Assembly (NCBI GenBank): GCA_015039365.1
Contig: WION01000221.1
Span: forward strand, 1 to 64,000
Direction: 5' to 3'
DNA length: 64,000 nt
Origin: Amanita rubescens
Taxonomy: Eukaryota > Basidiomycota > Agaricomycetes > Agaricales > Amanitaceae
Each line of letters starts with the position of its first letter. Position 1 is the stretch's first letter. Of the stretch, positions 2,145 to 32,831 are shown in pieces. The notes under the pieces are model-generated. The model was not told the origin of the DNA. It searched no databases and was given only the letters and a program-made list of their open reading frames with translations. The position numbers and the translations under genes were made by a program.

Positions 2145-2201
2145 TCATGAGTTATTTCAATATTCGGTGAATATTGGACTTCGTATGTAGGAGAAGGGCT
2201 A

Positions 2202-13090: not shown

Positions 13091-13094
13091 AGGC

Positions 13095-13420
13095 TATGTT
13101 GTGGGCATTGAATATGTCATTTTTCAAGATCTGACAGTTACTAAAGGAATACAAGGGGCTGCATGGGTGGATGCGTAAATGAGCACTTGGATGACATTGC
13201 CAAAATTAGCTAAAGTGATGTCATTTGCTAAAATTAGACTAAAGCAAATCAAACAATGTCATTGATATGTTATATAAGTGCACTAAGCTTATTCTAAGGG
13301 GTTTGAGGCTATGTTGTAGGCAATAGATATGTTAATTTTTGAGATCTGACAGTCATTACATTAATACAAGGGGTTGCATAGGTGGATGCACAAATGGGAG
13401 CCCGGATGACGTTGCTAAAA
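13095..13420. repeat. two-copy tandem repeat, about 215-bp period
   Basis: A block beginning GGCTATGTTG, with AGATCTGACAGT and ATACAAGGGG(C/T)TGCAT(G/A)GGTGGATGC, occurs at about 13088-13200 and again at about 13307-13420. Related GGTGGATGCAT sequence occurs inside the hAT-type elements at 15900 and 50960, so this is probably the interior of such an element. Confidence 0.6.
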
Positions 13421-13628
13421 TTAGTGCAACTTCTAATTTTAGTAGCATCATCTGACTACCCACTGGCCAATCCACCCCTCTAACCCTCCAAACGGTTGCC
13501 AAAAAAGACCGGTTGCAACCAATTTTGCAACCGGTCTTTGACATCTGGCCCAAATCCTCAGACCAAAACCATTTTGAGGCTGTAGGTGGCAAAACTGGCA
13601 ACTGCGGTTTGGTTGCAACCAATACTGG

Positions 13629-14413
13629 TAGTCTTTCTAAGTTAGGTCGCATGACTGGTCATGACCGGTCACACGACCGACCATGACTGCAGTCGTGGCA
13701 CGACTGCAGTTGCGGTCGCGGTCATACAAAATTGGTCTATCTCCACAACCGGTCGTAACCGATCATTTCAGGGTCCAGATGACTTTGATACATCCACCCC
13801 ACCAAATGCCTGTAGCCCTTAGAATATAGTGTAATAACCCTTAGAATAATTGTAATAACCCTATCATTGGGACATAAAGATACTCTGCCCATCCCAATGG
13901 TGTGATGGGCGGAGTATTTTAGTATTCTTTTGAAGATTGGGACAGTGACATATTGGGATAATCCACAATAAAGGTGGAAAAATACTCTGCCCATCACACC
14001 ATTGGGATGGGCGGAGTATTTTCCCATTTTTTGAATATTGGGATGGTGACATATCAGGATAATCTACAATAAAAATAGAAAAATACTCTGCCCATCACAC
14101 CATTGGGATGGGCGGAGTATTTTCCTATTTTTTTGAATATTGGGATGGTGACATATCAGGATAATCTACAATAAAAGTAGAAAATACTCCACTGATCACA
14201 GCATCAGGATTAGCGGAAGTGACACATCATAACCAGTCATGACCAGTCATGACTGGTCGCACGACCACTAACCCCCAGCTCACGACCGAATATGACTGGT
14301 CATGTCGGTCACAGTCACGGTTGTGGCAAATTAAAGAAATTCTGCGACCAGTTCAGTCACGGTCGTGGCCATTAGGGCTGCACGACTTAACTTAACCTAA
14401 CTTGGAAAGACTA
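13629..14413. mobile_element. nested small hAT-like element, TIR TAGTCTTTC
   Basis: The left end TAGTCTTTCTAAGTTAGGT and the right end ACCTAACTTGGAAAGACTA form an 18- to 19-bp terminal inverted repeat with one mismatch. The flanks AATACTGG (13621-13628) and GATACCGG (14414-14421) agree at six of eight positions, as expected for a decayed 8-bp TSD. The 785-bp interior has GACTGGTCATGACCGGTC motifs near both ends and the hairpin array listed separately. No coding capacity. Confidence 0.65.
13870..14215. repeat. tandem hairpin array, about 105-bp period
   Basis: Units hold the arms AATACTC(T)GCCCATC and GATGGGCGGAGTATT around a short loop, followed by a spacer GGGATGGTGACATATCAGGA. Three clear copies start near 13875, 13985 and 14085, and a worn fourth near 14183. 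Relatives with GAAAATACTCCAC...GGCGGAGTATTTTT lie at 16045-16300 inside the 15672-16551 element. Confidence 0.75.
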
Positions 14414-14519
14414 GATACCGGTCCGGTCTGGTTACTGGTTTTTTGCCGGTCCTTTAACCGGACTTTAAAACACTATCTATGCTCCCCCGGACATCCTCCC
14501 AGGCTACTGATAACACCAG

Positions 14520-15674
14520 GTGTCTTTCATTGACACCAACTTATATTCCCAGCAATGTCTCGCACATCACTCACTCCCTCGCGGCTCTCGCGAGGCCTCG
14601 TTTTACCCTGCTGTTTCCCACATGGTAGGCTCTCCTAATGACTCAAGTACCTCGTGTACTCCATTTGCACCATCACCATCAACACCTGACACACCTCGCC
14701 CTGAATCGGGCTGTCTTGCCATCCCACCAGTCGTCCCACCAACGCCAGCCATAGACCCTGAACCGCCGCCTGAACCGCTGCCACCTGAAGGGGATGAGTT
14801 TTCTCTCCCTGTTACCATTATACGTGTGGACTCTGTCAACGTGGGGCACTTTGATGTCCCCAACTGCAACCACGCACTCCTCCACCTCGCCCTCACTGAA
14901 CTCTCTGTGACCACTGATGTTCTGGTCACCCTCGACACCCCATATCGTCAACACCCCACCGATGATAAGCACGGCAACACCCGCTACGTCACGATTTCAC
15001 ATCCTGACTGGAAGAGGGTAGCCCCGCTGATATTACTAGCAGTCCAATCTAGGACTGCCATTTGGATCAACAAGCGGCTCGCCACCACTCACAACGTCAA
15101 GGTCTCCCCTGAGATCCCTGACATTAATGAAATCAAAGTCGTTTTGACAACTAAGGAATCAAACGCCTGCCCTTGCTGCAGGACCAGTCACTTCCAGGTC
15201 CCCATTGACCTCATGTATCTGAGCGATGCTCATGGAAATACCATCGAGGCCAAGTATGAAATACACACAGCCTCTAAATGCTCACACTGTGGTAACCCCA
15301 CTCCATCTACACCATCAATGACACTCCCTGTCGACTCAAGCGAAATCAGTGCCTTTGGGCCTGTTAACGAAAACCACATGGCCTTTGAGCCGTCTACAGA
15401 ACCACCAGCACTTGCTTCTACGCAAGCGCCACCCATAACACCAACAACACCGTCGGCAGCACTACCTGTTGACTCGAATGAAATCAGTGCCTTCAGGCCT
15501 GTCAGAAATACATCGCCAGACGTCCCCTACCTGGAGTGTCTGCATCAATGCTGGCGTGCACTACGTGTACACTGGCGGCCATCCACTTTTGGCGAGTCCA
15601 TCGCCGACATACTAACTAACACCCCGGGTGCCGCTTACCTTGCCTGGTCATTCGGGGGCGTTCCCTGGGACTAG
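14520..15674 (+). CDS. uncharacterised protein, proline-rich with a CxxC domain
   Basis: An uninterrupted 384-codon frame. Visible parts: a proline-rich low-complexity N-terminus (about 40-95); a compact-looking middle (95-265) with PVTIIRVDSVNVGHFDVP and a WKRVAPLILLAVQSRTAIWI stretch; two cysteine pairs, CPCC near 219 and CSHC near 257, which could bind zinc; a second proline-rich linker; and a C-terminal segment with PYLECLHQCWRALRVHW. That last segment faintly resembles PHFECVERVWRARC near the end of the 1585-residue ORF (19146-23903), so this may also be a retroelement-borne ORF. A hAT element entered at its last codons; the duplicated target bases keep PWD, and without the insert the frame would end two codons later. 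I recognise no family. The true start is uncertain because hAT debris lies directly upstream. Confidence 0.5.
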   Translation: MSFIDTNLYSQQCLAHHSLPRGSREASFYPAVSHMVGSPNDSSTSCTPFAPSPSTPDTPRPESGCLAIPPVVPPTPAIDPEPPPEPLPPEGDEFSLPVTIIRVDSVNVGHFDVPNCNHALLHLALTELSVTTDVLVTLDTPYRQHPTDDKHGNTRYVTISHPDWKRVAPLILLAVQSRTAIWINKRLATTHNVKVSPEIPDINEIKVVLTTKESNACPCCRTSHFQVPIDLMYLSDAHGNTIEAKYEIHTASKCSHCGNPTPSTPSMTLPVDSSEISAFGPVNENHMAFEPSTEPPALASTQAPPITPTTPSAALPVDSNEISAFRPVRNTSPDVPYLECLHQCWRALRVHWRPSTFGESIADILTNTPGAAYLAWSFGGVPWD

Positions 15675-16551
15675 TGTGTAAAAGTCCAGTCCGGTCTGGT
15701 CTTTTGCACTATTTTTGGTGCAACTGGACCTGGACCGGTCTTTTTATTTTTTCCATTTTGGGCAACCGGACCAAAACCAGTATGGACCGGTTGCCAATGG
15801 TTGCCAATGAAATGGCAACCGGTTCAGGACCGGTCTTTATTCGGACTGGTCCTGAACCAGTTGTGACTGGTTGCAACTTGTCTGGGTCAATGACATCCAT
15901 ACCTCTATTCATGCATCCACCCATCCAAACCCTTCTGTCTGCCTAATAACCCTCACATCCAACTAGTTAGGTCATTGTAACATAGATATGATGTAATTTA
16001 GGATGTTTTTAATAATAACATTGAGCATTATTGGCAAATAAAAATAGAAAATACTCCACAGATCACAGCATCACCATCGGCGGAGTATTTTTCTTCAATA
16101 TTGTTCAATGTAATGCAGATTTGCACATCATCATTGTCTGATAAAAATAGAAAAAACTCCACAAATCACAGCATCATCATCAGTGGAGTTTTTCCTTTAA
16201 TGTAATGCAGATTTGCACATCATCATTGTCAGATAAAAATAGAAAAATGCACCACCAATCACATCATCCTCATCTGCAGAGTATTTTTACATTGCTAATC
16301 TAATTTTAGCCCAATGACATCCAAAACTTGAAGTCCACATCCACCCCCCCCAACCTCTCCAATGGTCAAGGTAAAAGACCAGTTGCAACTGGTCTGCAAC
16401 CAGTCTTTGACATCTGGGTCAAGAGATGCAACTGGCAACCGGATCAACCCAGATTTGGAAGGACCGGCAACTGCAGTCCGGTTGCAACCGCTATCGGTCC
16501 GGTCCGGTTGCCAGTCTTTTCAAAAAGTTGCAACCGGACTTTGACACACTA
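15672..16551. mobile_element. complete non-autonomous hAT element, 880 bp, TSD CCTGGGAC
   Basis: The left end TAGTGTGTAAAAGTCCAGTC and the right end GGACTTTGACACACTA are inverted. The 8 bases before (15664-15671) and after (16552-16559) are both CCTGGGAC, a perfect TSD of hAT length. Both subterminal zones are dense in ACCGGT-type motifs; the middle carries three hairpin units with ACTCCAC...GGAGTATTTTT arms. No ORF of note. It sits at the very end of the 14520-15674 frame. Confidence 0.92.
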
Positions 16552-17548
16552 CCTGGGACGTCCACTGAATGAATCACCAGCAAGGGTAGGCCTCATGCGC
16601 CCGATATGTTGCTCATGGTACACTTGTAGTACCTTTTTGTAAACACTTTAACACGCGCATCAAAGATGCGCGATGCGCATTACCCCATTATGTGACTTGT
16701 GTCATACTGCCTACTTTGTATTAATTTACATACCTGCTCAATCAAACTCCTTTATATTAAAAAAAAAAAAAAAAAAAAAAGATGGCCTGCGCCTCATATA
16801 CATTTGCCTCTTCTATCTGCCGACTCTGGCATTCTCTACTTTTAAAGCAGCCGCTGTCAATCTTTCTGCTTTGGTATTGAAGAAGTTGGTCCTTTGCCCT
16901 ATAAAACCCCTATTTGCCATTCCCCACCTTCCTTGTCATTCTTATTATGTCCCAAGTGTTGCAGTTCAATGCTGTCTGGCACTGCACTCAACTCTTATCT
17001 CAAACCGCTTACATTCCCAGCGCAGATTTTGATTCGACCATGGCATGGAAATATGATGGTGCATCCCATCTCCTTGTCAATGTACACCAAGTTTCCGAGG
17101 CTTTGTCCAAGCTAGATGAAGTACACAATGACACTGTGATGGTCATTGTAGGAGTTGTTCTCCCAATGTGACTTAATGTTTCACCACGTGGAAATTTCAG
17201 CACTCAGTATACCACTGAAGTTACCACAACCAAGTTTCAGCTTTTGCTAGGTTCCCCTTCAGATCCCAAATTTGCCATTGACTTCACTTCCGCAGTCAAC
17301 AAGCTTCGCTGCCTTCAAGCCACTGTTGCCTTGTCTGTGGATAGGCGCTGTAATGAGCCAATTCCGGCTATGTTGGAACCGATCTCTGAAGCCTTCCGAA
17401 GCTACCCAAAGCACTCCAAGCCTATACTCGACCCCAGAGGATGATCGTTTGAGTTCGGACGCATGCACAGGCCTCGGACTCAGTGCAGGATTCATCACAT
17501 GGTCACCTCATGTCTCCATAGTATATATACCATTGTGTACGTAGTTGT
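16552..17548. other. unclassified region with a poly(A) run and gag-like open stretches
   Basis: A GCGCATC-AAA-GATGCGC hairpin lies near 16656, and about 20 A residues at 16769-16790. The plus-strand frames 16914-17171 and, in a different frame, about 17173-17444 read like one broken protein (SADFDSTMAWKYDGASHLL, then DPKFAIDFTSAVNKLRCL). I do not recognise the family; a retroelement gag is possible but not shown. Confidence 0.3.
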
Positions 17549-17851
17549 TGTTACATTTGTTCGTCCACTGATAAGTTAAACCTATCAGGTACCGTAGGTT
17601 CCTCAAGGGAGTTCCGGCACTTAAGAACGTTCAAAGAATAAGAGTGTTATCGGATAAGTCCTCAAGGGAGCTTAGACAATAACGAGACAGATTTGACTGT
17701 TAAAACTAGACTGAGGTCTAGTCATATATTTGTGTATTTTATATAGTACAAGGTATATACACAAATACAGTAAGTATGAATACATGTGACAACGAAATGG
17801 TTTACATGTGATAATGAAACGGTTTACATGTGATAAAATGAAATAGCATAT
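17549..17851 (-). mobile_element. 5'-truncated LTR, inverted copy of 2202-2599
   Basis: It begins TGTTAC at 17549 (the 3' end of the LTR on the minus strand) and follows the reverse complement of 2202-2599, with the paired CTCAAGGGAG motifs and the ACTAGACTGAGGTCTAGT hairpin, up to AGCATAT at 17851. About 100 bases of the LTR's 5' end are missing. Confidence 0.85.
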
Positions 17852-18542
17852 ATCTGCATTCTGAGTTCGATTCCTTCCATTCCCTTCGTTCCTTGGTGCT
17901 TTGGACACCTTCCACTCATTCACCTTCATCTTCAGCACTCTCTCTGCACCCGAGACACCCTTCGGACTGATCTCTGTAGCCCCTTTGGCTGAACGCACTT
18001 CCGCATCAGCCTTCTTCTGATTGTTTCAGTGCTATTTGATCAAAGTGGATGGTCCTCTTCTACGTTTTACTTCACCATTGTTTGAAAAAAAGGTAAGCAA
18101 CCTTCCTTTTTTTGGACTTTCTACCTTGCCTTACTTCTCTTTTATCACCAGAATGTGGAAGAAGAATGTTTGTTGTTGTCCTCCTTCCTGTGACCATCCA
18201 CTGTTTCTAATTAATATTTCACAGCTGATGAGATTACTCGCAACTGGCCAGTGACTGACACTGCATCTTTAGATGCACTTCACACCATCTGGAACACACA
18301 CAGTATACTTCCTCTACCCATCTATGTTATTCAAACATTTTCAAGATATTCAGAGAAGATATTAACTGGCACATAAACTTTGACAAAACAAACACACCTT
18401 TCTCAGGAGACTCTGATGAAACAACTTCAGAAGGATTTTTAACGATAGTGGAAGATTAATTGGATGCCATTTCTCAATGAATGTGTAATACAATTGGAGA
18501 TGGAATGCAATACAATGAATTTCAAGCAAGGTTGTTGCTGGC
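17852..18542. other. no recognisable gene
   Basis: Pyrimidine-rich sequence without family motifs. Its last five bases, CTGGC (18538-18542), are the left TSD of the 8-kb LTR element. The continuation of this target on the other side (26586 onward) is gypsy pol, so some of this stretch may be worn gypsy sequence, but I cannot read it as such with confidence. Confidence 0.4.
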
Positions 18543-18872
18543 TGTAACGGGGCTACTATGTAGCTCTCGTACATATTCATCAAGATACTCATCAAGATGG
18601 GAGATCCCTTGAGGATCTCCAAATACGAGGATGGGAGCTACGTTTAGCTCCCTCATTTATTCCCTGTAGATAGTTTTCCTCTATTCTCGTAGATAGTTAT
18701 GTTACGGTACATATATGGTAGGTTGTCACACTTTGTGACACATCATCTTACACCTTACCTTACCCCACTCGCGTACACCGCACGGTATCACATATACACG
18801 TTGATTCAGTGCAAGACGCAAGGGGTGATTAAGTTGGAACCTTATTAGGTTCCTTTCAGTAAGAACGTTACA
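18543..18872 (+). mobile_element. 5' LTR of the 8-kb element
   Basis: It runs from TGTAACGG to CGTTACA. Hairpins include GGAGATCC/GGATCTCC (18600-18620), GGGAGCT/AGCTCCC (18633-18652) and TGTCACA-CTT-TGTGACA. Directly after it, CTTTTTTGCACTT stands where a primer-binding site should be; the same 13 bases follow the LTR ending at 56117. Confidence 0.92.
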
Positions 18873-19145
18873 CTTTTTTGCACTTTCACAAGTGTACTGT
18901 GCCAATCTTCCCATTTGGAAGATTTCAGCCATCCTCATTCTTCTCAAAAACTATCTGCACTCAACAACACCAAGAAAGCGCCCTACAACTACCCCAATAA
19001 CCCCTGGAGGTTCTCTAGAACCTCCATCTCGCGTTCCGGACTCCAGAAGCCCGAAACGACGCTTGTGACACTGTCCAAGCTATTTCAATTCTACGAAGAA
19101 ACTACGCCTTCTACAACCACTTAGAGCGAACCCTAAGCAATCTAA

Positions 19146-22100
19146 ATGGTCCCCGGAGGCTCCCGAAACTCGGAGCCTCCACATAAGGATATCCCGAGAA
19201 TGAACCTCCAGTACGACAAGGTATTCTCGTTGCTCCTTCCTCAGAAGGAGAAGGGATATCGTACTTCTCGAAAACAAATGAAAACTATATATTACGAGCT
19301 TGAGGCTCGTTATGAGCGAAAGCGTGAAATTCGAACAAACTTCAGTTACACGTCATCTCGGGAACTGGACCTAATGTCCAGTACCCTACATAGCTGGCGT
19401 GAAGCCCTCGCTGCTCACAAACGGGAACACTATTCCGAGTGTTCCCAACTCATCTTCAATCATGCAACTGAGTTCGACGGCTTCGTCGCGAAATATCACG
19501 CTTCTCAGTTCAAGATTAGCCTCGACGAACCACTTTCACGCGACTTACAATACGCCTGTCACGACGCGTATTTAGGCTTATATGATGGTTCTATAGACCC
19601 GGAAGTAATATCCGAGTCGTTCTGGACGTTGGTCGAACATTGGGACTCAATACGCATGGCCGCCTTCACTAACGGCCAAACCCATCCGGGCCTTGACCAA
19701 CTCCACGATGAACCACAGTCTGCGGCAACCGTCAATGCAATGGAGGAGGTTATCGTGACCTCCGAGCCATCCGTGAATGATTCCCAAACGCTTCCCGAAA
19801 CGCCAAAGGAGCGCATAACCGAGTGCTCCACGTCGATACACGGACTTGCTGGTTTACAAGCCCAGACTCCATCTCTTCTGGGTAAAACGCGGGAGGAACG
19901 ACGGGTCTATAACTCCGTCGTTAGTATACATGCGAAAGGCGAAGATATCTCCTCACCTAATACCTCGGCAGCACTTACTCTGCCTGAACTCGTTCCTATC
20001 TCCTCGCCAATCCCTACTCCTCACATTACACCCAAGCCCCATTCTTCAACCCCTTCATGCAAACACGACTCTCCACGAGTCATACGAGAGGTTAGAAGAA
20101 CAAGAGACTCAACCTCTGAGTCTCGAAACACATCGGGACGAGTTCGAATGACTCGTTCCCAAACATGTCCGAGCTCATTGAAGTCGGACTCCCTTTCTAT
20201 GCCTCGGGAACTCCAACGGAACACCCGGAGTTCCCTAACGGACACCGAGCTATCCAAAGCTCGTAAAGTTGATCTTCCCGGGAAACCTCCCTCGGAATCA
20301 TCAATGGAGACAGCAACGACTGTCTCCCACAATTTGTCGAAGTCCCGTATGCTTGTTGAGAATCGACAACTCCCCAAATCGTCTGTGCTTGTCGGAAAGT
20401 TAGCCAAGCCCCGAGTTGTCGCCACTGCTTCGTCTCGCGTTCCTATTCCTGGAGTCGCGCCCAAGGCGAATCTTCGAATGGAAAACAAAGCTGTCAGCAC
20501 AAAGGAACGAGCTGATGACTCTGAATACGCACCTTCGACCAAGACAGCCCTCACGCTGTCTGAACACTCGCCCGTCTCCCTTTTACGGGCCCATCCTCCA
20601 CACCGGCTCTTAAACGAGCCTAAACCGAACTTTCCGACTGCTTCTAAACGGCGTATGCCTAGCATCGTTAGTACGAAACAAATGGCGAGCAGAAACACTC
20701 ACCAGAAGGTTGATACTCGTCCTAGAGCATCATTACCAAACGCAAACGAGCTGTTTGGTAAACCATCTTTGTCTCCCAGCTTAGGAGATTCGGTACAGCT
20801 TAAACAAGCCGTAAAATCATTCGGAAGTCCTTGCAGACTTCCTGAAATTATCCCGGAATGCTCCGAAGAGCGTTCCATCCAATTTGGACGACTTGCCAAC
20901 GAGCAAGTCATCTCTCATCCATCCTTTGGTGAAACGGGGGAGAAACGGCGCACGCTAGACGCCGTTATCAGTATACAAAAAGAAAATAAAGAAAATAACT
21001 TACCTGAAGCTTCGGTAGCCTTCACGCTACCAGTATCTGTTCCCGTCACCTCTCCCATCCATCCTGGCCCTTCAAGACGTTCTTCTTTTGAAGAAATCAA
21101 CCTGCAAGCTAATGAAGAGGTCAATCAGAGAATCTCGACTCCCGAGACTCGAAACATGCTCGAACGAGTTCAATTGACTCGTTCTGAAGCTAGTCCGAGC
21201 TCCGCGAAGCCGGACAATCCTCTTGAACCCCCGGGACTCATTAAGAGTCCCCCAAATATTGCTCGCGAGCCTACGCTGGCTCGAAACCCTATACTTGGCA
21301 AACCCGTCCCGGAGATGGTCTTGTCCATCTCCCGACCTTCACTCAGCTCCAGCATACACGTTAAGACTGGAGAACAATCTAAACATACCGTTCTGAGTAC
21401 CAGAGAGCTCCCAAAGGGAAACTCTCGCATCGGCAATAAGCCCTCTGGCCGAACCGTCTCGGCTCCCTTGCCGAAACGTCGGGACGTCGAGAAAACATAT
21501 GTTGGAAAGGCGAAAGTCAGCCCTACGAAAGGAATAAGTGCAGTCGAGTACTTACCTGTACTCAAGACGGCCTCCTCGTTGTCAAAACCCCCGCCCGTCA
21601 CAGTATCCTCAGCTCGGGCATCTCCAACCCGTTCTTCCAAAGATAGGACTACATCCCTTGTCTCAATGAATTCTAAACGACGCACGTCGAGCGTCGTGAA
21701 TATGAATCATGTAGTAAATAACAATACTACGCACCGTTTGTCGGAGACCCTTTCTCGGGTCTCCAATACATTCCTTTCACTTCCGACTAATGAAGGCCCA
21801 TCTTCTCCCGTTGCGGGAGAAGTCTCGCTATTTGCCGAATCCAGGGGAGGACAAGCAACTCAGTCCTCCGGAATCTGCGAGCGTTCCGCTGAGCGCTCTA
21901 ATCAATTTCAAGGACTCGTCGGCGCACGAGTCCCAAACCTTTTCCTCTCGGATGAAACGGAGGAGAAACGACGGATCTACGACACCGTCGTTAATGTTCA
22001 GATCAATAGAAGTGAAGAAAACATACCTGATACCTCAGCAGCCTCCATGCTGCCATTCTACACTTCCGTTCCCTCGTCCATCCGTCCTGCGCCAACCGCA

Positions 22101-23903
22101 TCCATCTGTGCAACCTCAGACGAACCTTCACCGCCTGTTGAGGTGGTACCCAGACGACATATCCTAAATGTCGTCAATAAGAAATCACCGGCGAGTGAAC
22201 TACCACACTCACCTTATACCGGGACTGTTCGAAGACAGTCCCAACATACCCTAACTCCTTCGAGGAATGAAGGAGGACAGCTCGCGAGAGCTGCTGCTTA
22301 TATCCGGGAGCGTATCAACCGACGCTCCCTCGCCTGTGACAAATCCGCTTGTCGAATCCCCAAAGGTCCACCTGACAAGGCTACCGACCCCGAATCTGGC
22401 TCTAGACGACCTATTGTAAAAGTCGTCAATAAAGAAATAGAAACGAGCGTAACGATACGCTCACCTGAGCCTGAAAGTCCCGAAGCCCCTCTGGTACAAC
22501 CTGATGCTGTTCCTCAACCTCATCCCAAGGCCCGGAGAGCAAACGAGCTCTCCTCTGAACATTTGGGATCCATCATGCGGCTCCCCGGACTTGCGTTTGA
22601 CGAAGCGAACAACCGATGGCAGCGGAACCTACACACTGTCAGTGACGTGGATATGAGCGTGAGCCCGCGCTCACCGGTACCCAATACGGCCTTCACGCCG
22701 TTCCACTCGTCTGCGTCTGCCTATCCTATGCAGGCTTCTCCATCCTGCCAGCTGAGACACATCTTCAAGCTTGACGCATATCCACTGGTCCGTCCGCTCA
22801 CACAGTCGAGTATTGATCTCGACTGGCTTCATACATCCCAACGACGTCCTTGGGATGTCATCAAAACATCGATCAACCCGGCGAGTGCCAACGAGTACTC
22901 ACCCGAATGTAAGGCCGAGAAGGCCATTAACTCTTCTCCCATCTTATCCAAGACCGGGAGAACTCGACAATCCGGCTCCTCGTACCCTCGAGATGCTCCA
23001 CAGGGACCCGCTGGAACAACAATCCAACAACGCGACCTAAGCGTTGTCAGCAACGTGAAAACGAACATCGTTCGGTACTCACTTGATTCCCCCGCGGTCC
23101 CTCTACCGCGTTCACGTATGCCAGCCGAGCCTCAGCTGGTTCCACAATCCCTTCAGCTGAATATAGACCAGCTCCAACCGAAGCCCTCGGAGCTTCCAGT
23201 CTCGAGACTCGGAAGCTCCCAGCGATGTCCTTCGGATATCGTTAATACTAAACTCAACTTGAGTACTAGCCAGTGCTCACCTCAACCCGTGGTGGTACTC
23301 ACACCACCTATACCCAAACCCATTGGCTACGCCGTCACGCTCGTTCTTGGCTATGGTCTCGACGTTTTGTTGAGAATGATGTGGGCCCTCAGTGTCATTA
23401 CCTTCCACACAGTCCGTAATCGCAAGGCCGAAGAGACGGCGTACACAATCATCCACGAGTACATCGAGGATGACGAGTCTCCCACTTCAGCCCCTCCTTC
23501 TTATGCCTACGTCGACGCCAAGACCGCGACGAACGCGTTGCCTATACTTTCGCCCGAGCCTTCGTGGTGGGCGGAAACCCCTCATTTCGAGTGCGTCGAA
23601 CGCGTTTGGCGCGCCCGCTGTAAGCCGCCTAACATTGCGGTCAATTCGAGACGACGAAACCACCTTGTCGTCAATAAAATGAATAATCCGGGTGACAGCC
23701 ACTCACCTTTATATCGGGCAGTACGAATACTGCCCAAACCGTCCAATCTCATCCGCACCGACTGCTTGAGGCCGCGACAACAGTCAAACGTCGACGCATC
23801 CCGATTTACGAGCACTCTGGCAAGACTGCCACGTCATTGCCATTTCTTCGTCTCGTTCGTCGTCGTCCTCTTGCAGTATTTGCGATTTAATTCGGAGGGC
23901 TAA
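19146..23903 (+). CDS. giant 1585-residue ORF of unknown function in the LTR element
   Basis: Residues 1-210 look folded and helical (LEARYERKREIRTNFS, SFWTLVEHWDSIRMA) and could be a gag-like head, though no motif proves it. Residues 210-1390 are Ser/Pro/Arg-rich and probably disordered, built of three worn repeats about 345 residues long. Each has an 'EKRR(x)YD(x)VV(x)IQ...TSAA..LP' block, near 248, 597 and 937. A hydrophobic stretch at about 1392-1422 (YAVTLVLGYGLDVLL...WALSVITFH) could span a membrane, and a second hydrophobic run sits at the C-terminus (FFVSFVVVLLQYL). No zinc knuckle, protease, RT or integrase. The coding DNA contains a perfect or near-perfect stem of 6-9 bp about every 40-60 bases. 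The long open frame argues for real selection or very recent birth. The first ATG after the LTR in frame was taken as start; a downstream ATG (MNLQYDK) is as likely. Confidence 0.7.
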   Translation: MVPGGSRNSEPPHKDIPRMNLQYDKVFSLLLPQKEKGYRTSRKQMKTIYYELEARYERKREIRTNFSYTSSRELDLMSSTLHSWREALAAHKREHYSECSQLIFNHATEFDGFVAKYHASQFKISLDEPLSRDLQYACHDAYLGLYDGSIDPEVISESFWTLVEHWDSIRMAAFTNGQTHPGLDQLHDEPQSAATVNAMEEVIVTSEPSVNDSQTLPETPKERITECSTSIHGLAGLQAQTPSLLGKTREERRVYNSVVSIHAKGEDISSPNTSAALTLPELVPISSPIPTPHITPKPHSSTPSCKHDSPRVIREVRRTRDSTSESRNTSGRVRMTRSQTCPSSLKSDSLSMPRELQRNTRSSLTDTELSKARKVDLPGKPPSESSMETATTVSHNLSKSRMLVENRQLPKSSVLVGKLAKPRVVATASSRVPIPGVAPKANLRMENKAVSTKERADDSEYAPSTKTALTLSEHSPVSLLRAHPPHRLLNEPKPNFPTASKRRMPSIVSTKQMASRNTHQKVDTRPRASLPNANELFGKPSLSPSLGDSVQLKQAVKSFGSPCRLPEIIPECSEERSIQFGRLANEQVISHPSFGETGEKRRTLDAVISIQKENKENNLPEASVAFTLPVSVPVTSPIHPGPSRRSSFEEINLQANEEVNQRISTPETRNMLERVQLTRSEASPSSAKPDNPLEPPGLIKSPPNIAREPTLARNPILGKPVPEMVLSISRPSLSSSIHVKTGEQSKHTVLSTRELPKGNSRIGNKPSGRTVSAPLPKRRDVEKTYVGKAKVSPTKGISAVEYLPVLKTASSLSKPPPVTVSSARASPTRSSKDRTTSLVSMNSKRRTSSVVNMNHVVNNNTTHRLSETLSRVSNTFLSLPTNEGPSSPVAGEVSLFAESRGGQATQSSGICERSAERSNQFQGLVGARVPNLFLSDETEEKRRIYDTVVNVQINRSEENIPDTSAASMLPFYTSVPSSIRPAPTASICATSDEPSPPVEVVPRRHILNVVNKKSPASELPHSPYTGTVRRQSQHTLTPSRNEGGQLARAAAYIRERINRRSLACDKSACRIPKGPPDKATDPESGSRRPIVKVVNKEIETSVTIRSPEPESPEAPLVQPDAVPQPHPKARRANELSSEHLGSIMRLPGLAFDEANNRWQRNLHTVSDVDMSVSPRSPVPNTAFTPFHSSASAYPMQASPSCQLRHIFKLDAYPLVRPLTQSSIDLDWLHTSQRRPWDVIKTSINPASANEYSPECKAEKAINSSPILSKTGRTRQSGSSYPRDAPQGPAGTTIQQRDLSVVSNVKTNIVRYSLDSPAVPLPRSRMPAEPQLVPQSLQLNIDQLQPKPSELPVSRLGSSQRCPSDIVNTKLNLSTSQCSPQPVVVLTPPIPKPIGYAVTLVLGYGLDVLLRMMWALSVITFHTVRNRKAEETAYTIIHEYIEDDESPTSAPPSYAYVDAKTATNALPILSPEPSWWAETPHFECVERVWRARCKPPNIAVNSRRRNHLVVNKMNNPGDSHSPLYRAVRILPKPSNLIRTDCLRPRQQSNVDASRFTSTLARLPRHCHFFVSFVVVLLQYLRFNSEG

Positions 23904-26240
23904 TCTTGAGCCCTCCACACATGTAAATCTGTAAACTTATGAATATATATCAGCAAAACGGATACAGTCAAGTTATAAACTCATAACTCACCAAATTAAT
24001 CAATTTATTCGGAAGGAGACTCCCTGAGAGTCTCCACACTTAATAACAACCTCCTTCTTGTAAGAAGGGAAAAAAACTCGTGACGAGTCGTATTAGATTC
24101 GTCCGAGCCTAAAAACGGAGAACTCTCCACTAATATTTACCGGAGGACTCACCGTAGAGTCCTCCCCGTCCATCCGTTTGACACCGCGTCATCGGGAATA
24201 CCGCCTGGCCCTCGTTCGTTCCAATATGCGAGAGGGCGACGCATAGTCCGACCCTCGAGACTGACGAATTGTCCAGGTCTCAAACAAGAATCCTGGAGAG
24301 AACTCGTGCTGAGTCCTCTCCCATTATCGTCCGACGAACCGGGATAGCTGCATCTATACGACGCAGTTAATACAATTCGAAACGAATAGAAAACGAGAAC
24401 ATACCTGACGCCAAGGCTGCTCCCTCGCAGCCATCCCTCGTCTACCTCGTCTACTGCTCCTCCCGGCCGTAAACCACCTATAACGGACAAAAGACGACGC
24501 TACATTCAGGTCGTCAGTAAATCATAATCCTCGGGTATAAAAAGACTTACCAAAGTGCCTATACCCTCAACAACCCACGGGAACTCATACGAGAGTTCCC
24601 TCAATTAATATATACGCCCGTTTTTTTTTTTTCCTTCTTGAAGGGGAAGAGACGCTGGGCGTGTTAGTTAGGATCAATCGTTCAAAACGATGGAGAGTTC
24701 CAACGAACTCTCCGAACACATTCGGGACTCGAATGAGTCCCATTCCTTGACGTTGACGGTCGATTTGCATAAGATGCCGCGCCTATATGACGCAGTTACT
24801 ACAAGCAAAGGAGCAAAGAGAGCTACAGGCCTTACCTAGTCCCGAAGCCAACCCATCGCTTCCCTCTTGCCTCTTGTCCATTCGGTGGGAAATCCATAAA
24901 GGACTCGCTTCTGAGTCCTGTGAATCGATAAGACACGGCTTAAAGAAATCGGTCAGCGAGAAACGAAGAAATAGAAAGAAAAGAATGTACCTCTCCCGGA
25001 ATCCCCGCCTTCGTCTCGTCCTGCTCTTCCGCATCAGCTCTCGCATTCCCTCAGCTCCCCATTCGTCTATAACGTCAAACGGGCCGTTCCTGAGCCCGTT
25101 CCCTTCTATCAAACATGCGAGAGGACAAGCTCTCGCTATCTGCCTGTTATATGCGTCTAGGCTCAGACGCTCGTCAACCACGTCGACAGGAAAGATATCA
25201 GGTACTTACCCGGCATCTGCACCATTCCCTTCTCCCCAAAGTACGTCATGTGGGGGAGAAACCCATCTGTTATCCCGGGACCATGTCTATCTGGTCCCTA
25301 TTCTCCATTTCCTATCCCCCGAGATCGGTCCCCATTCAGCGTTGAAGTTCCATCGCGCTAGCCCAGCAATCATATCAGCAAGCCGAACGGAACGAAAGGA
25401 AGAAACGAAAGAAGAGACTTGAAGAGACGCACCATATGCCCTAGCCTCCATCCCCTCACGGCCGTCTCGTCTCCTTTCTCCCTCTCCTCTGAGTCCTCTC
25501 GATCTTCACCAGGATAGTACACGGCTCTTGAAGCCGTATTGGATTCTTGGAGAGCTCCTGGATTCGGAGCCCCGCCTTGGATTATTGCTAGAGCCCCTAG
25601 CAATAAACGGATTTTGACGCGCAAGTCGCGCGTGTCACATGACCACCGGATCCCGGCTATTCCCTTTCAACCGGTACCGATCTCTCGACGTTGAAAGCCT
25701 ATGGAGCGTCCCCGTTTCAACCGTTCGACTTCACACTTTGCACGAGCAATGCCCTCACCCTAGGCATCCTATCCAAGTCATCGGGACCATCCACGACAAT
25801 GCCCAACCGAGCGCAATTCATTTCGACGCATCCGCCTCAGCCTGCTGTCACATTCGCGTGACCACCTTCCATACTCGGAAGTTACGCCGAATTTCGACGC
25901 GCCCACACGTCGAATACTCTGCAGGCCCAAACTACAAGTGAACAACACCGTAGATGTTCGCTTTTACCGGGGATAGACTCTACCTGCTATTCCCTACATC
26001 CTCGGGGAGAAATCAGATTTTACTTCAGTGGAATCATTGTTCTCTCCCCTCTTTCCTACTCTCCCAAGCAAGTTCAATGCATATGCAAGCCTCTCCCGTA
26101 TTCCTATACATCGCCCATGACCTATGGCGAGTGGGGGAGGATGTGACGAGTGTTTAACACCTCACGAAGATCTTAAGACACAATTTTCGAAGATATACGA
26201 CATTTATATCATCATTTCTTAAGATTGTAATGCAATCTTG
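23904..26240 (+). other. non-coding hairpin-rich continuation of the internal repeats
   Basis: The repeat blocks of the large ORF continue past its stop: ACATACCTGACGCC...GCTGC near 24400 and ACTTACCCGGCATCTGCACC near 25205 match the ORF's ACATACCTGATACC...GCAGC blocks. Stem-loops also continue, e.g. GGAGACTC/GAGTCTCC (24015-24035) and GGAGGACTC/GAGTCCTCC (24142-24165). The plus-strand frames 24787-25422 and 25639-25941 are open but have no recognisable domain; I do not call them genes. Confidence 0.6.
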
Positions 26241-26250
26241 TGGGGGAGGA
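26240..26250 (+). promoter_or_regulatory. polypurine tract of the 8-kb LTR element
   Basis: GTGGGGGAGGA lies immediately before the TGTAACGG start of the 3' LTR, the position where plus-strand DNA synthesis of LTR elements is primed. Confidence 0.75.
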
Positions 26251-26580
26251 TGTAACGGGGCTACTATGTAGCTCTCGTACATATTCATCAAGATACTCAT
26301 CAAGATGGGAGATCCCTTGAGGATCTCCAAATACGAGGATGGGAGCTACGTTTAGCTCCCTCATTTATTCCCTGTAGATAGTTTTCCTCTATTCTCGTAG
26401 ATAGTTATGTTACGGTACATATATGGTAGGTTGTCACACTTTGTGACACATCATCTTACACCTTACCTTACCCCACTCGCGTACACCGCACGGTATCACA
26501 TATACACGTTGATTCAGTGCAAGACGCAAGGGGTGATTAAGTTGGAACCTTATTAGGTTCCTTTCAGTAAGAACGTTACA
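26251..26580 (+). mobile_element. 3' LTR of the 8-kb element
   Basis: The same 330 bases as 18543-18872 with no difference noticed on reading. It is followed by the TSD CTGGC at 26581-26585. Confidence 0.93.
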
Positions 26581-26585
26581 CTGGC

Positions 26586-27347
26586 ACAGCCAGTGCTTAT
26601 GAGTTCAGAATTTCAATGGATTTTGCAACTTCTACCCTTTAAAGATACATAAAAAGATATTCTGATGTTGCAAAACCAATAACTAGATTAATGGGGAATA
26701 GGCCATTCAAATGGGAAGATGAAGAACAAAAGGCCTTTAAACAAATGAAACAGTTAGTAGCATCAGAAGAAGTCATTACCTTACCAATTAATTGCCAATG
26801 GAAAATACCAAGTAGAAGCAGATACATCTGGATATGCAATAGGAGGAACTCTATCCCAATTACAGAATGGAAAATGGAGAACGGTTGCACTCCTCTCATG
26901 ATCAATGTCCAATGCTGAATTACAATATGACATATACGACAAAGAATTACTAGCAATAGTATGTGTGTTAAAGGAATGGCAACCCTATCTATTAGATGCA
27001 GCAGAACCATTTGAAGTATGGTCCGATCACAAAAATCTCTCCTATTTTAGGAAACCACAGAGATTAAACAGACAACAAGCCAGATGGTATCTAGAACTCC
27101 AAGACTACAATTTTGAAATCAAACATATACCTGGAAAAGCGAATACAAAAGCAGACATTTTGTCTTGTTTACTTGGTGTAAAAACAAAATACCAGAACAA
27201 AAAGATGTAACTCTATTAGATAACACCCACTTCGCCAAGAAAGTAACCATGCCAATACAATTGTTCATGGAAGAACAATTTTTGAAGGGAGGTGAAACCC
27301 TTTCAACCAAACAAATTGAAATAAAAACATGCCATTCAGGGCATTGA
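26586..27347 (+). pseudogene. Ty3/gypsy pol fragment (RT end, RNase H)
   Basis: Three frames together show the typical order: FKWEDEEQKAFKQMKQL (26691-), EADTSGYAIGGTLSQLQNGK in a shifted frame, then ELQYDIYDKELLAIVCVL, EVWSDHKNLSYF and RRYL-like QQARWYLELQDYNFEIKHIPGK (26905-27210), the RNase H block of gypsy elements. At least one frameshift and a TGA break it. It is the target into which the 8-kb LTR element inserted, since the CTGGC duplication separates it from 18542. Confidence 0.9.
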
Positions 27348-28741
27348 TATCAATCAATAGAAATGTTGGAGTCATGAAAAGCATCAGTGTGAAGATGTGA
27401 AGGTGGATTGTTAGACATGTGAAGGGCTAGGTTAACCATTGGGGCATAGGGCACAGGGCTGTGAGGGGTCAAGGGGGGTGGCACAGAGCCTGGCCCCTCC
27501 ATGGGTAGCATGTAGCCCAGGGAAAAGGATTAGAAGGGGAGACAAACCTAGAGCGTCTTCTACTACTGCTGGGTGGATTCAAAGAGGAGTGGCCAAGGAG
27601 GCCCAGTGGGGGGGGGTTCCCTCATAACAATAGGTGTGAGTGTTGTTGGAGGGGGGGGGGGGAGAAAAGGACAATAGAAAAAGAGGAGAAATGAAGAAAA
27701 GCAAGATAAAAGGAATAGGATGCTTCTGAGTGGACACTATAGCAATGAGAATGAGTATTGGGATGTGAAACATGTGTATCTCAATTGGGAAGGTGGTGGT
27801 AAAAGGACAAGAAGTGGTGGCATTCATTGCTCCTCACTGTCAACAACAGTGAGCAAGACATGTTTGTTGCATTTTTTACATTCTAACATAGTGGATAAGT
27901 GCATATAAGGAATATATTCCAAAAAACTGCCACAAAAACATTCAGTATTAAGGGAGATATTGCAATTTCTTTCTGCTCATCACCACCAACAATGAGCAGA
28001 TATTTCCCAAAATGGCAATGCCAAAGTGCACTATTTCCATTTTTGGAAATGCACCACTGGATCCTAAAGTGCACATTACATTGTGAATTTCCTTTTTTAG
28101 AAATTTGACCCTGAAAATCAATGAGCAAATATCTCAATGAAATCAGCACCAAACACTGTCATACAACCACATTTAGAAAGCCACTGACCAAGGCTACACA
28201 ATTCATTGACCCTGAGATTATGTAATCATTTCCTTTTTTGACCCTGAAAACAATCTGGATATCTCAATTAAATCAGCACCAAACTTTCAACATCTTCCAA
28301 AAATGGTAATGGGCCTGGGTGGGGAAGTTATGAAAGGCCCCAAAGTTATGAAAGGATATTCCCCAGAGGATATGAGAATTAATGAAATGAAAGGCCCAAA
28401 AGTTATGAAATGAAAACAGCCATGATAGATAACACAAATGACTTACCAATAAATCCCTAATTCTTTGGTAGCAATTGTTCTGAGGCCAAGTGAAACGAAG
28501 GACTCGTTTTATTCCAAAACTTGAGCCGCTTTTATTTCCTTTTTGGTAAGTGCTGGTAATTACCAAATAAACAAATACACACACATACTAACAAACAGCC
28601 TCGGACCTGCCGTGCACAGCAGTGGCCCATAATTCCAAGTAGCTACCACTCTCTGACACCATTTGCAATATTAATATCAAGATCCAGGCTAGAGAAAGGT
28701 TGGTTCTCAGAGACTTCCCAGTGACCACCAGTTAATCAATC
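27348..28741. other. no recognisable gene; G runs and dispersed repeats
   Basis: A G-rich stretch with a run of about 12 G near 27650 is followed by the inverted copy of the 4427-4535 repeat (27826-27905). A two-copy repeat with TTTGACCCTGAAAA and AATCAGCACCAAAC follows, at about 28085-28158 and 28230-28290. Nothing coding is supported. Confidence 0.5.
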
Positions 28742-29425
28742 ATGTCATATTATAGCATCTTCCTGGATCAACAGTGTCTGCTGATGCTTTGCTTACTAGT
28801 CCTCTGCCTTCATGGCAGCAACTACCCACAGTATATTCTAGCTGAAGCTGGTGATCCTGAGCTGAATGCTGAGCACCAGGGCATTGAAGCCAAGTTTTAT
28901 GGCCTTTCTGCCATGATTTTGGACCACTGGTTCCCTTCAGCCAATGGTTATATGATTCACCCCCAGTGGCCTATTCCCAATTCTCACAGAACCATCAACT
29001 TCACCATCACATTCTGATCTAATATGCCAGGGCATCATAGCCATGTGCTGTTGCTTGTTGAGATCAAGCCACCATGGCACTACCATCAGGATGCACAGCA
29101 CCAGGCTGCTATTGGCCAAGTCATTCACCACCTTGATGAGGTTGGGCTGACCAACAACTATGTGCCCCACATGTATGCTATTTCTGCAATTGGGAAAGGT
29201 GGAGGGCATGTTATGCCTTCAGCAGTTGGCATGGTCAGCCTGTAAGAGGTATTAGGGCATGAAACTCTCTGAGATCTGCTAACATGGCATGTTGGAACAA
29301 TAATATTACATTGGACCATTCTTGGGAGGCTCTCCAGAGGATGGTTTGGAGATAATCAGAGGCTATGCTGTTTAGAATTAGAACTTCTACTTTACCAAAT
29401 ACCAACATTGCACCCAGAGGCAAAC
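28742..29425 (+). pseudogene. broken member of a fungal family with a possible nuclease-like core
   Basis: Two consecutive plus-strand frames (28742-29017 and 29024-29245) read on from one another: QGIEAKFYGLSAMILDHWFPSA, PQWPIPNSHRTINFTITF, then VLLLVEIKPPWHYH, IGQVIHHLDEVG and YAISAIGKGG. After further shifts, SLRSANMACWNNNITLDHSWEAL follows. I recall similar uncharacterised proteins as common in Agaricomycetes. The D...E-x-K arrangement (LVEIKPP) is compatible with a PD-(D/E)XK nuclease fold, but this is inference only. A stop between the two pieces and later frameshifts make it a pseudogene. Confidence 0.55.
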
Positions 29426-30860
29426 TGTGTGTTGTATGGGTCCTGCATCATTGAAGGAGCCATCAGCATTACAAACAGGAATTGATCTGGAAGGGGTTGA
29501 GGCTAAGTCCTCAAGCCCATGCAAACCTTTCGTCCAGATAATAATCCATAGCTTTGCAGTCAAGCAGGTTTGGACATTGAAGTGTTGCAAGTCATCAAGG
29601 GTGGTGAGAGCTGCAGAGAGTGGGACTGAGTTTTGACCAATTGGCAATACAGTGAACCCAATGGTGAAGGCCCTTCAGTTCTGCCCAGAGTGAATCAGGC
29701 TCTAGGGTGAGGAGGTTTTGAAAAGTTCTGGGGGCTCATGATGGCACTGTGGATTGGTCCAGTGACACAGAGCCTTCATTGCAATAGGGGTACTGCAGGA
29801 AAGTTGACCAGACCCACACAAGAAAACCTTGCAGGTTTTGTGAACAGTTTGATTATCTCTGGCACTCATTTTGGGCATGAACAATTCTCTTTTCATTAAT
29901 TGGGGCTGAAATTATATTACATGTAGACTTAAGAAAAACAGTATCACCTGAAGGGGTGGCACATGTCATCATCCCCAGCTCAGCTAAAAACTCTTCTTTT
30001 CATCCTACTCACTCTCCTGGATTATCCTCCTGATGTTGCCCTTCTTCCTCCATGCAGCACCACATTGGAAACAAGTCCACCTGCAAAGGTGGTCAACATC
30101 CATGAGTCCATTCCAGGGAATGTGTGAGCACTGGTATCCCAAGTCTCCTGAGCCCCTCTACTAGATCCTGGGTGCGCCATTTGGGCCTGCTCCCCCAACT
30201 TGCCCCAATCACAGCCAGCAATTGCAAAAGCTTCGAGTTGGCCGCCAACCTCCACCAAGTCCCATTTCTTGCATACAGCAATCTCCATATATGTAGTTAC
30301 AAAAATTGTCCAAGGTGAAATGCCACACAGGCACCATATTGAACTCAGATGTATTGCGAACAGAATCCTTCTATGCCAATACGTGCCTTCAGTGAGCAGA
30401 GCTATGGGTGCCTCATCAGTGCACAAGCTCCTTGGTGGTCCAAACAGTTCCCAACTGGGAGTGAGGTCATCAAAGGTGCAAGAGACTCCCTTTGTTTGAC
30501 TATTGCTTGGGTAAAAAGGTCATGTTGGACATTGCATTGTAGTGTCATTGAGGCCAGTATCTACTATCAGGAGCCCTGGGCCAACAGCCTTGTCAGTGAT
30601 GTTGTCTTCACACGTGAATGCTCAAGACAACTAGTGTACTTACACAGTCAAAGGTAACAAAGGTAATAATAGTTCAGGAAGCACACATATTTAATAACTG
30701 GCCTGTTATCTTGTACATCTAATGTCACATTTGGCTAACCCCCAATTCAACTTTGCATTGCTGGGTTTGAGGACTTTGATGATGACACCCAGACCCAAGG
30801 GCTAATGGGGACCTCTCTACCTACACCCAGAGATATGGATATGCCTGTACAAGGAAGGCA
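29426..30860 (-). other. coding-like debris on the minus strand, family not recognised
   Basis: Minus-strand open stretches 30022-30426 (WDLVEVGGQLEAFAIAGCDW), 29702-29896 and 29387-29647 (RSIPVCNADGSFNDAGPIQH) look like pieces of one decayed protein. I cannot name the family. The last 120 bases (30740-30860), read on the plus strand, continue into the 31614-32830 relic. Confidence 0.3.
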
Positions 30861-31613
30861 TCAGGAAAATGGGTTCTGACTTAATTGACTTATATGGACT
30901 TAAACTACTTGCACAAGTAAATTAAGACAAGATTAAGTAACATTTTTTTTTCTTAGGTGACTCAAAAATTAAGACATTTAAGACACTTTAAGACAGGTCT
31001 CCTACTTTTTTTACTTAAATATGCACTTATTTGACTTAAAGTGCCTTATTTTTCTGTGCTTCAAGCCTGTTCACAATAAGAATTAAGCCATATAAGGCAG
31101 TATAAGTCAGATAAGTCACTCCAGTCAGTTAAGTGACTTAAGTAAATAGAAGCAAAATTTCATTAAGTGGTTAACTACTTTTCTACTAGTGACTTCAATA
31201 CTACTACTTACACTACTTATACTACTTATCTAATGCCCTATGAGATGTGCCTGGCGGGTGTAGAGGCCCTCCTTATATATATACCTGGGGCCCTGTGCAT
31301 GGACCATTTTAACCGTGGGAAATATTATGTAAGCATCACATGACATCAAAATGGTACTCTTGATGTTGAAAAACTCGAATCTAAAATTAGAATTACCAAA
31401 CATGGCTTATTAATGAGATATTCATGTTTTTTTAAACTTTCCCATGCTGGACTTAGTGACTTAAAGTACTTAAGTGGCTTGGCTGCTCCTCTCTTGACTA
31501 AATCTTCTTAGTTGGCTCAGATGTGAATGTAGTGACTTAGTGAAAAAAAGTTGTAAGTAAAATAAGACACAAAAGGTGTCTCAAGTAGAAAAAGTCAGAA
31601 CCCATTTTCCTGA
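30861..31613. mobile_element. small non-autonomous hAT-like element, 753 bp
   Basis: The ends form a 22-bp inverted repeat beginning TCAGGAAAATGGGTTCTGAC. The flanks GGAAGGCA (30853-30860) and TGAAGGCA (31614-31621) match at seven of eight bases. The interior is rich in ACTTAAGT, GTGACTTA and similar motifs, thickest near the ends, which is the layout of hAT subterminal repeats. No ORF. It splits the relic 30740-32830. Confidence 0.88.
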
Positions 31614-32830
31614 TGAAGGCAGATGCTGAAGAGCAGCAATAATACTTGGGCTTGCCCCCCTGTGTCTACTGGTTAGTTCCCTTATTATCCAGAGATAAAA
31701 TAGGGTACTATCATGGGGGAATGATCCCATGAGATGTTTGCCGGGGCTGGTAATAGCAACCCTGGCATCAGGAAGAAGAGGCAACCATGTGGAAGGAATG
31801 ACCCAAAGACACCCAGATCTGGGTGTACAGAAAAGTCCAGGATTGAATCACGCCACAACCCCCTACCATCCTGACCCAAAGACCCCATTGACAACCCCTT
31901 CTCTGACTCCAAGCCTGTCTCAGGCAACGTCTCACACATCCTACTGGAGCCATTGGGATAGCAACAATAATGACAACCACAGTGACAGCAATGACAATGA
32001 CAATGATGAAAACAATTTTGTAACCCTCTCCAGAGGCAAACAGTTTACCATTGACTCTGGCCTCAAGACAAATGCAAATGCCATCCCCAGTTTCTTACAT
32101 AAAGGACACAAAGCTATCTTGGACAACAAACACCACTCCCTATCACTTCCTTCAAAGAGGTGACATAGAGGTTCAAAGTGTTAGCAAATTTGTGTCATCT
32201 GACTTTATGAACTTGCATACTTTGGGTTACCTAATTTTTGACATCTTCGGAACATGCACGGTTGAAGGGGACAAACAGGATTTTATGTACTTCATGTACA
32301 AACTTTCAGAGCTCACACAGAAAGCAGGTGATGATACAGTTGCCAGTATTCTGGAGAATATGGCCAAGTCGGACCACTTGTTATCGAAAGCTAACAACAG
32401 GTTTGAGACATTCAAGGACAGGGAGAACCACATCAGAGGACAACTGAGAGGTAAGGAGGAAGTTGAACTTAAAGGTGCTAACCACAAAATAGGTGCCCTC
32501 AGGGCCAACATCAAACACCTTGAAAATGATCTAAGGAATACCACTGGACAGGCAAATGAAGCGAGGATGGAAATTGAGGGAATGAAATTGGAATGGAAGA
32601 CAACAATGGATGAGCCTGATAAAGAAATTGATGGTCTGTGCATTTGAAGTGGCCAGACTTAAAGCAACTTGCACAGAGAAATGCCAAATTGCCTGCCACC
32701 ATGGAGGTGGACGCCAAGGAAGCTCCCACTAAGGTGTCCATGACCCCCATACCCCATCACAGGCCACCATTCTCATGCCTGATATGCCACAACAAAACCT
32801 GGTGGACCCAGATGACAGCATACCACAGAG
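31614..32830 (+). pseudogene. broken coiled-coil protein gene, possibly a gag/ORF1-like 5' part
   Basis: Plus-strand frames 31729-32163 and 32051-32647 overlap and continue each other after a frameshift near 32150. The second has a long heptad-like region (SELTQKAGDDTVASILENMA, KEEVELKGANHKIGALRANIKH, RMEIEGMKLEWKTTMDEPDK), typical of a coiled coil. The first carries an Asn/Asp-rich run (32 bp of AAT/GAC repeats around 31965-32010). Before the hAT insertion at 30861 the gene probably started further left (FDDDTQTQG near 30780). Its 3' part may be 41930-42940, cut off by the Helitron region. Function not known. Confidence 0.45.
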
Positions 32831-32831
32831 G

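Follow-up and report, generated by a model that had tools for sequence, protein, structure and literature searches.

The 64,000-nucleotide stretch of Amanita rubescens DNA analysed here (contig WION01000221.1, positions 1 to 64,000; the window) contains at 18543-26580 a long terminal repeat (LTR) element of about 8 kb, in which a comb of short inverted repeats (hairpins) runs through the whole length and an array of intron-like units lies antisense to a long open reading frame (ORF). The comb is real and constrained. Judged from sequence, we somewhat favour the interpretation that this is a nonautonomous LTR element maintaining two long RNAs of opposite strand. A sequence-only reading of the window had described the comb but had missed the antisense intron array, which changes the interpretation, and also a second clade of relatives.

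Stems were counted without overlap as perfect inverted pairs with a loop of 3-12 bases, and each stretch was compared with 15 dinucleotide shuffles. The element contains 88, 56 and 31 stems of at least 6, 7 and 8 bp, versus 11.7 (SD 3.5), 3.3 and 1.1 after shuffling. Within the sense ORF there are 53, 33 and 19 such stems versus 8.1, 2.0 and 0.3, and 100 codon-preserving shuffles of the same frame gave 10.9 (maximum 19), 3.5 (maximum 8) and 1.1 (maximum 3). Beyond the stop codon, the part 3' of the ORF holds 22, 12 and 5 stems compared with 4.1, 1.3 and 0.5. The comb noted in the sequence-only reading is thus confirmed, far above both kinds of shuffle, and it crosses LTR, leader, ORF and 3' part as had been claimed; the six hairpins quoted there as examples are all present where they were placed. 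The array part of the ORF has 12.0 stems of at least 6 bp per kb, its C-terminal region 6.2. The control stretch at 33156-40247, which we take to be a helitron, lies below its shuffle means (14, 5 and 0 stems versus 18.3, 7.1 and 0.9).

Three further places in the window, at 2202, 49551 and 55821, had been described as LTRs of the same habit, and all three are enriched in stems of at least 6 bp: 10 versus 2.7 shuffled at 2100-3100 (for stems of at least 7 bp just 2 versus 1.0), 16 versus 4.2 at 49450-50900 and 12 versus 1.9 at 55700-57010. The last of these includes sequence resembling an LTR, with about 70% identity to that of the element, and two strict minus-strand intron-like units, and on our reading of the sequence it ends near a transposase-like gene. 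The statement that neighbouring transposons lack the comb holds for 33156-40247 but not for every neighbour, because mild enrichment occurs in some other stretches of the window (60 stems versus 26.5 at 1-10000, 35 versus 19.8 at 10000-18500 and 25 versus 16.4 at 27000-33000).

In order to assess selection on the stems, 43 matches were reduced to 30 loci, 21 of them distinct, and 15 were aligned (L047, L051, L059, L060, L061 and L063 were left out). Stems were defined in one copy and divergence was measured between two others, using triples of eight representative copies; this third-sequence definition removes neutral decay of ancestral hairpins as a cause of slow stems. An early stem divergence of.080 was set aside, being biased by the choice of stems perfect in the reference. 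Across 56 kinship-filtered triples, divergence among subfamilies was.117 in stems,.228 in loops and.204 in the rest, so that stems change more slowly than their surroundings by 43%. The slowing is seen at all three codon positions (.112,.117 and.136 versus.205,.216 and.244; 168 unfiltered triples). Stems were intact in 41% of 1640 comparisons, versus 22% expected if the stem had decayed in the second copy alone.

Paired sites also change together. We redistributed the 3' letters among sequences in 300 shuffles, a procedure that leaves relatedness in. The four alignments were represented by 8, 7, 6 and 3 sequences, with L033 excluded from the 5' set both here and in the wobble test below. Counted as sequence pairs against shuffle means, sites with both sides changed and still paired numbered 162 versus 64.1 in the 5' alignment, 315 versus 142.6 in the mid alignment, 55 versus 23.2 in the 3' alignment and 38 versus 16.8 in the second clade, that is 2.2-2.5 times the shuffle level and above the maximum of the 300 shuffles in all four. 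This test replaced a slid-arm control (58 double changes versus 8-32), which was not clean, since most slid pairs lack pairing in the reference to begin with. Extra paired states make up a larger share of all changed states in stems than in control pairs; the control pairs vary far more, with 22% invariant pairs versus 43% in stems. At some hairpins, for example those at 19155, 21846 and 22153, both arms have changed and the loop is kept. When copies are aligned, the stems therefore prove constrained and compensated among them.

It had been proposed that the comb might be a scar of a copying mechanism. In such a scenario, foldback template switching during reverse transcription would perfect inverted repeats without any selection, in line with stems that are perfect rather than wobble-rich and with sites such as 19155 where whole arms have been replaced together. 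By our reasoning, however, conversion should leave the divergence of arms unchanged, and the stems are slower. In addition, the eight best loci bearing reverse transcriptase (RT), which were not chosen for kinship to a partner of the element, are hairpin-poor, with 0-1.4 stems of at least 7 bp per kb versus.26-.60 shuffled, and a scar would leave unexplained the phasing of some stems to splice sites (below). This explanation is less supported than the sequence-only reading allowed, and we regard it as very improbable.

On the minus strand of the element, donor, branch point and acceptor follow one another in order and at fungal spacing, as in spliceosomal introns. Strict rules returned nine units on the minus strand and none on the plus strand, whereas 200 shuffles gave a mean of 0.58 (maximum 4) on the minus and 0.32 on the plus strand. 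These units lie at 20659-20702 (44 nt), 21977-22026 (50 nt), 22164-22212 (49 nt, its acceptor lying within a GACGAC hairpin loop), 22411-22464 (54 nt), 22629-22674 (46 nt), 23037-23082 (46 nt), 24354-24404 (51 nt), 24500-24550 (51 nt) and 25157-25209 (53 nt). Under looser rules 13 units were listed, of which 12 were counted credible and one of 66 nt at 25994-26059 is doubtful. Those credible under the looser rule only are at 19907-19956 (GTGAGG...CTAAC...TAG, 50 nt), 20955-21003 (GTAAGT...TAG, 49 nt) and 23929-23991 (63 nt, beyond the sense stop codon); a loose intron rule is weak, as a count of 14 on the minus strand compares with 5.25 in shuffles of the element. The donor hexamers GTAAGT, GTGAGT and GTATGT occur inside the sense ORF 13 times on the minus strand and never on the plus strand. 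Related copies contain 1-6 strict antisense units and no sense unit, except for one sense unit in L055. Among the eight best RT loci, seven have no strict antisense intron and one has a single one.

The splice signals are conserved. In 168 triples of eight copies, not filtered for kinship, divergence was.053 at the donor GT versus.213 at the same motif elsewhere,.021 versus.272 at the branch A and.148 versus.219 at the acceptor AG, while the variable base of the YAG reached.355. Sites were defined in a third copy. Because related copies are pooled, these values do not represent independent events, yet the difference is wide. Units vary mostly among forms that would still work (GTGAGT, GTAAGT or GTATGT; CTAAC or TTGAC; TAG or CAG). 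Taken together, these signals suggest that the antisense RNA is probably spliced. The longest antisense frame is 218 codons after exon joining and 225 without it, and most exon frames contain stops, although single exons are sometimes open; the spliced RNA would therefore be noncoding. An antisense protein gene was rejected, as joining the exons did no better than leaving them unspliced.

The minus-strand introns might instead be the relic of a host gene that was captured backwards and multiplied within the element, and that is now unspliced. In agreement with this, the units sit, as we read the sequence, in in-frame repeats of the sense protein, and the unit near 21677 keeps its hairpin but has no intron in the window copy. 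A relic would not be expected to vary among mostly working forms, or to keep a GT 4 times and a branch A 13 times slower to change than matched motifs. Conservation of the splice signals disfavours the relic, which we consider improbable. The repeat unit concerned, at 21677-21730, retains the sense frame as well as its hairpin.

The second clade comprises six loci (L069-L074) with open frames of 989-1587 codons, whose protein is 36-38% identical over 40-51% of the query. Hairpin density is similar in all six, and antisense introns are found in two: L069 has 10 antisense and no sense strict units, and L074 has 12 antisense and one sense.

Hairpins and introns are in part arranged with respect to each other. 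Across 59 introns, drawn from six sequences that include several relatives, stems lie at -28 to -11 and at 0 to +19 relative to the donor and around the acceptor (positions H1, H2 and H3), and the bases ahead of the branch point are mostly unpaired. For the element, the paired fraction was.62 at H1 and.54 at H3, above the maxima of.48 and.50 in 500 circular shifts; in the second clade, H1 of L069 (.49 versus.46) and H2 of L074 (.53 versus.44) likewise exceeded the shift maxima. These results raise the possibility that the hairpins serve antisense splicing, stems by the donor, branch point and acceptor setting its efficiency. Clustering of stems at donor and acceptor, with the pre-branch-point stretch mostly free, speaks for this. 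However, of 94 stems (at least 6 bp, loop 3-14), just 14 occupy the three phased positions, 10 are in the LTRs and 70 are elsewhere. Introns thus account for no more than part of the comb, and as an explanation of the whole, splicing control seems to us improbable.

We then turned to the strand on which folding is selected. RNA tolerates G-U but not A-C pairs, and the roles swap on the opposite strand. Across the four alignments, stems of at least 7 pairs had 192 G-U and 307 A-C states versus 3476 and 4567 in control pairs (odds ratio.82,.68-.99, p.04); with stems of at least 6 the odds ratio was.90 (.78-1.04, p.16). One-mismatch stems in eight sequences comprised 41 A-C, 32 G-T and 30 transversion mismatches. 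A first A-C versus G-U test of the mid set gave p =.08, and a first count of the 5' set gave A-C 152 and G-U 98 but took in L033 and stretches of poor alignment. Stems thus show no preference for G-U over A-C, which makes it unlikely that selection acts on the sense RNA alone and leaves the antisense RNA, both RNAs or the DNA. Structure prediction found folding above shuffles on both strands: the minimum folding energy difference (MFED) was 26% on the sense strand with dinucleotide shuffles, 24% with codon-preserving shuffles, and 14% on the antisense strand. In 120-base windows the mean z was -2.2 for sense and -1.7 for antisense, and L069 of the second clade gave 19% and 12%.

MFED is thus raised across the sequence, as in viruses with genome-scale ordered RNA structure (GORS), and a GORS-like explanation would have the sense RNA alone folded for protection or packaging, with the antisense introns a separate matter. 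The sense values of 26% and 24% exceed both the 15% given for SARS-CoV-2 and the 23.4% that was the highest among the vertebrate RNA viruses then analysed, according to PMC7642675, whose methods differ in detail. The 120-base z is more negative on the sense strand, and hairpins are also present in leader and LTR. Against this stand the pairing data, which show no preference for G-U over A-C and if anything the reverse, and the RT-bearing loci examined, which would need packaging and yet have no comb. Packaging of the sense RNA, as raised in the sequence-only reading, is accordingly less supported, and we judge sense-only folding unlikely.

How might two long RNAs of opposite strand be maintained? 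The sense RNA would carry the ORF and presumably be copied by enzymes of an autonomous element with the same LTR and leader. The antisense RNA would be noncoding, with about a dozen mini-introns, and would be transcribed and spliced. The same short-hairpin comb is predicted to form on either strand, and it would be needed either in both RNAs or in the antisense RNA. Self-folded sense and antisense RNAs may avoid the long duplex that feeds RNA interference (RNAi), and splicing may get the antisense RNA exported instead of made into small interfering RNA (siRNA). Among the RNAi components, the genome has Piwi and RdRP domains. PMC5851062 describes how, in the basidiomycete yeast Cryptococcus, introns aid export, while transposon transcripts that are poorly spliced become a source for siRNA production. 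It is tempting to speculate that the comb shields the element from duplex formation and RNAi, although we put this forward tentatively and as unlikely in itself. A stricter version, in which a sense mRNA and a spliced antisense noncoding RNA are both obligate and the comb lets them coexist without annealing, appears a little less likely still.

Several observations weigh against the maintenance of two opposite-strand RNAs. In the second clade, the near-identical 4.9-kb loci L070-L073, which lie around the first 641 codons, each show one strict antisense unit, which is within shuffles, and 5-6 units by the loose rule versus 3.1-4.6 shuffled. Donor hexamers of this clade also occur two to three times on the sense strand, and pairing of its 5' splice site is frequent and should impede splicing. 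The pattern used in the intron search itself limits which variants can be listed. Five other phasing tests (H2 of the element, H2 and H3 of L069, H1 and H3 of L074) were not above all shifts, and the phased stems are, as noted, a minority. Extra paired states per pair are no commoner in stems (216/1917) than in control pairs (922/8492), and the copies are related, so that the cells counted are not independent events. The folding excess is greater on the sense strand. Finally, splicing would leave duplexes of at least 137 nt, long enough for Dicer.

The sense ORF (19146-23903, plus strand, 1585 codons) is open in most related copies and has protein relatives. A plus-strand frame of at least 586 codons is kept, within 2.0-2.8 kb, in 14 of the 15 aligned copies; in L057, the remaining copy, the frame has 303 codons. 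Substitutions have produced six in-frame stops in eight copies, versus about 93 under random placement (substitutions only), and strict rules found no sense-strand intron in the element. The ratio of nonsynonymous to synonymous change (dN/dS) is.62-.75 in the middle of the ORF, where the three codon positions change almost equally. At codons 61-185, dN/dS was.23-.37 in five comparisons involving the subfamilies L010 or L024 and.61 between the close pair L009/L035; codons 186-415 ranged from.44 to 1.23. A hairpin-poorer C-terminal region at 23273-23749 has 75-76% DNA identity to L069 and L074. From these sequence comparisons we deduce a real protein domain near the start of the ORF (19146-19700) and a conserved part at its end, with RNA-level constraints that seem to dominate the long middle.

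The boundaries of the element are well defined. The 5' LTR (18543-18872, TGTAACG...CGTTACA) and the 3' LTR (26251-26580) are 330 bp long, on the plus strand, and identical at 329 of 329 compared positions; the 5' LTR contains five stems of at least 6 bp. They are flanked by a target-site duplication CTGGC (18538-18542 and 26581-26585), as in LTR retrotransposons. The leader spans 18873-19145, and a purine-rich run GTGGGGGAGGA at 26240-26250 (plus strand), 5' of the 3' LTR, is read as the polypurine tract. The insertion is probably recent. It appears nested inside another retroelement (flanks 18300-18542 and 26586-27000), the right flank presumably encoding RT/RNase H. The LTR with its next 28 bases has at least 41 matches in the 75.7-Mb genome, this element's two included (40 of 80 candidates scored), and LTRs and copies together suggest mobility via a reverse-transcribed RNA intermediate.

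No polymerase domain was found in the element, as expected if it is nonautonomous: a Pfam scan of its ORFs of 1585 and 211 aa (E of at most 1) returned no family. There were likewise no RT matches on its contig among the 150 scored of 525 candidates, a search that is thus incomplete. L033 has an LTR 88% identical to that of the element, and LTR and leader are 85% identical over 622 bases common to both. After this leader, L033 has one stem of at least 7 bp in 1.2 kb and, as the sequence reads (not from a family test), a gag-like frame on the same strand; an RT match lies about 6 kb downstream on its contig, again on the same strand (C115:11606-12091). This arrangement identifies plus as the sense strand and suggests that an autonomous partner probably mobilises the element. 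An Rfam scan of 18500-26700 (E of at most 5) gave three matches, none a ribozyme and all far below the gathering score, so that neither a retrozyme, for which no hammerhead was found among these matches, nor a known RNA family accounts for the element.

Of 11 protein relatives, six are named as Amanita rubescens hypothetical proteins. One relative, P0001 on a 5403-base ENA contig, is 62% identical to the window ORF, and another, P0015 on an 8066-base ENA contig, is 51% identical to P0008; the family may therefore exist outside the A. rubescens genome. Diverged copies occur at 1807-2374, an equal distance from the contig start, in C21, C78, C158, C430, C441, C462 and C471, and near 10.4 kb in four further contigs. 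The copies at a fixed distance from contig starts are probably part of a subtelomeric unit.

We compared the element with known systems. Large retrotransposon derivatives (LARDs) are nonautonomous LTR elements with a long noncoding interior. With these and other nonautonomous LTR elements it shares two LTRs, a target duplication, a polypurine-like run, the lack of a detected polymerase domain and a likely partner, but it differs in its conserved sense ORF of about 1500 codons, its hairpin comb and its antisense introns. It was rejected as a LARD, the sense ORF being kept stop-free. Like GORS viruses, it shows a folding excess along the whole sequence, coding parts included, but it is a fungal DNA element with LTRs and not a plus-strand RNA virus; its stems stay at the same positions from copy to copy, unlike GORS, which has been described as poorly conserved, and it has a higher MFED (with methods differing in detail), no sense wobble preference, and antisense introns. 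Introner-like elements and symmetrical stwintrons (PMC8469720) are also repeated fungal spliceosomal introns with inverted-repeat structure; here, in contrast, the units are antisense to the ORF, have diverged within one element, and have some stems that straddle splice sites. Introner-like elements are near-identical and occur in sense orientation across many host genes, whereas the present analysis covered the element family. Plant Retand elements (PMC11963269) are LTR retroelements with a second gene on the opposite strand, whereas the antisense product here is predicted to be spliced and noncoding, and no open antisense frame of that kind was found. In Paramecium transgenes (PMC4937312) antisense introns are removed from antisense RNA at a locus under RNAi; that case concerns two introns at a transgene, verified by strand-specific reverse transcription PCR, in contrast to about a dozen conserved units predicted here within an element. 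Literature searches on antisense introns, hairpins, nonautonomous LTR elements and introners brought up no such element among the matches listed (titles and abstract starts), which is not proof of absence.

If the interpretation of two opposite-strand RNAs is correct, the antisense strand of this retroelement would be an RNA gene with many introns, kept by selection, and structure would be selected from one end of the element to the other without bias towards the sense strand. The question of how an element expresses both strands without feeding RNAi would become testable, and the copies would provide a natural set of covarying splice-site hairpins for studying how structure controls fungal splicing. 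For genome annotation, the element serves as a warning that an array of antisense introns can go unseen beneath a sense ORF.

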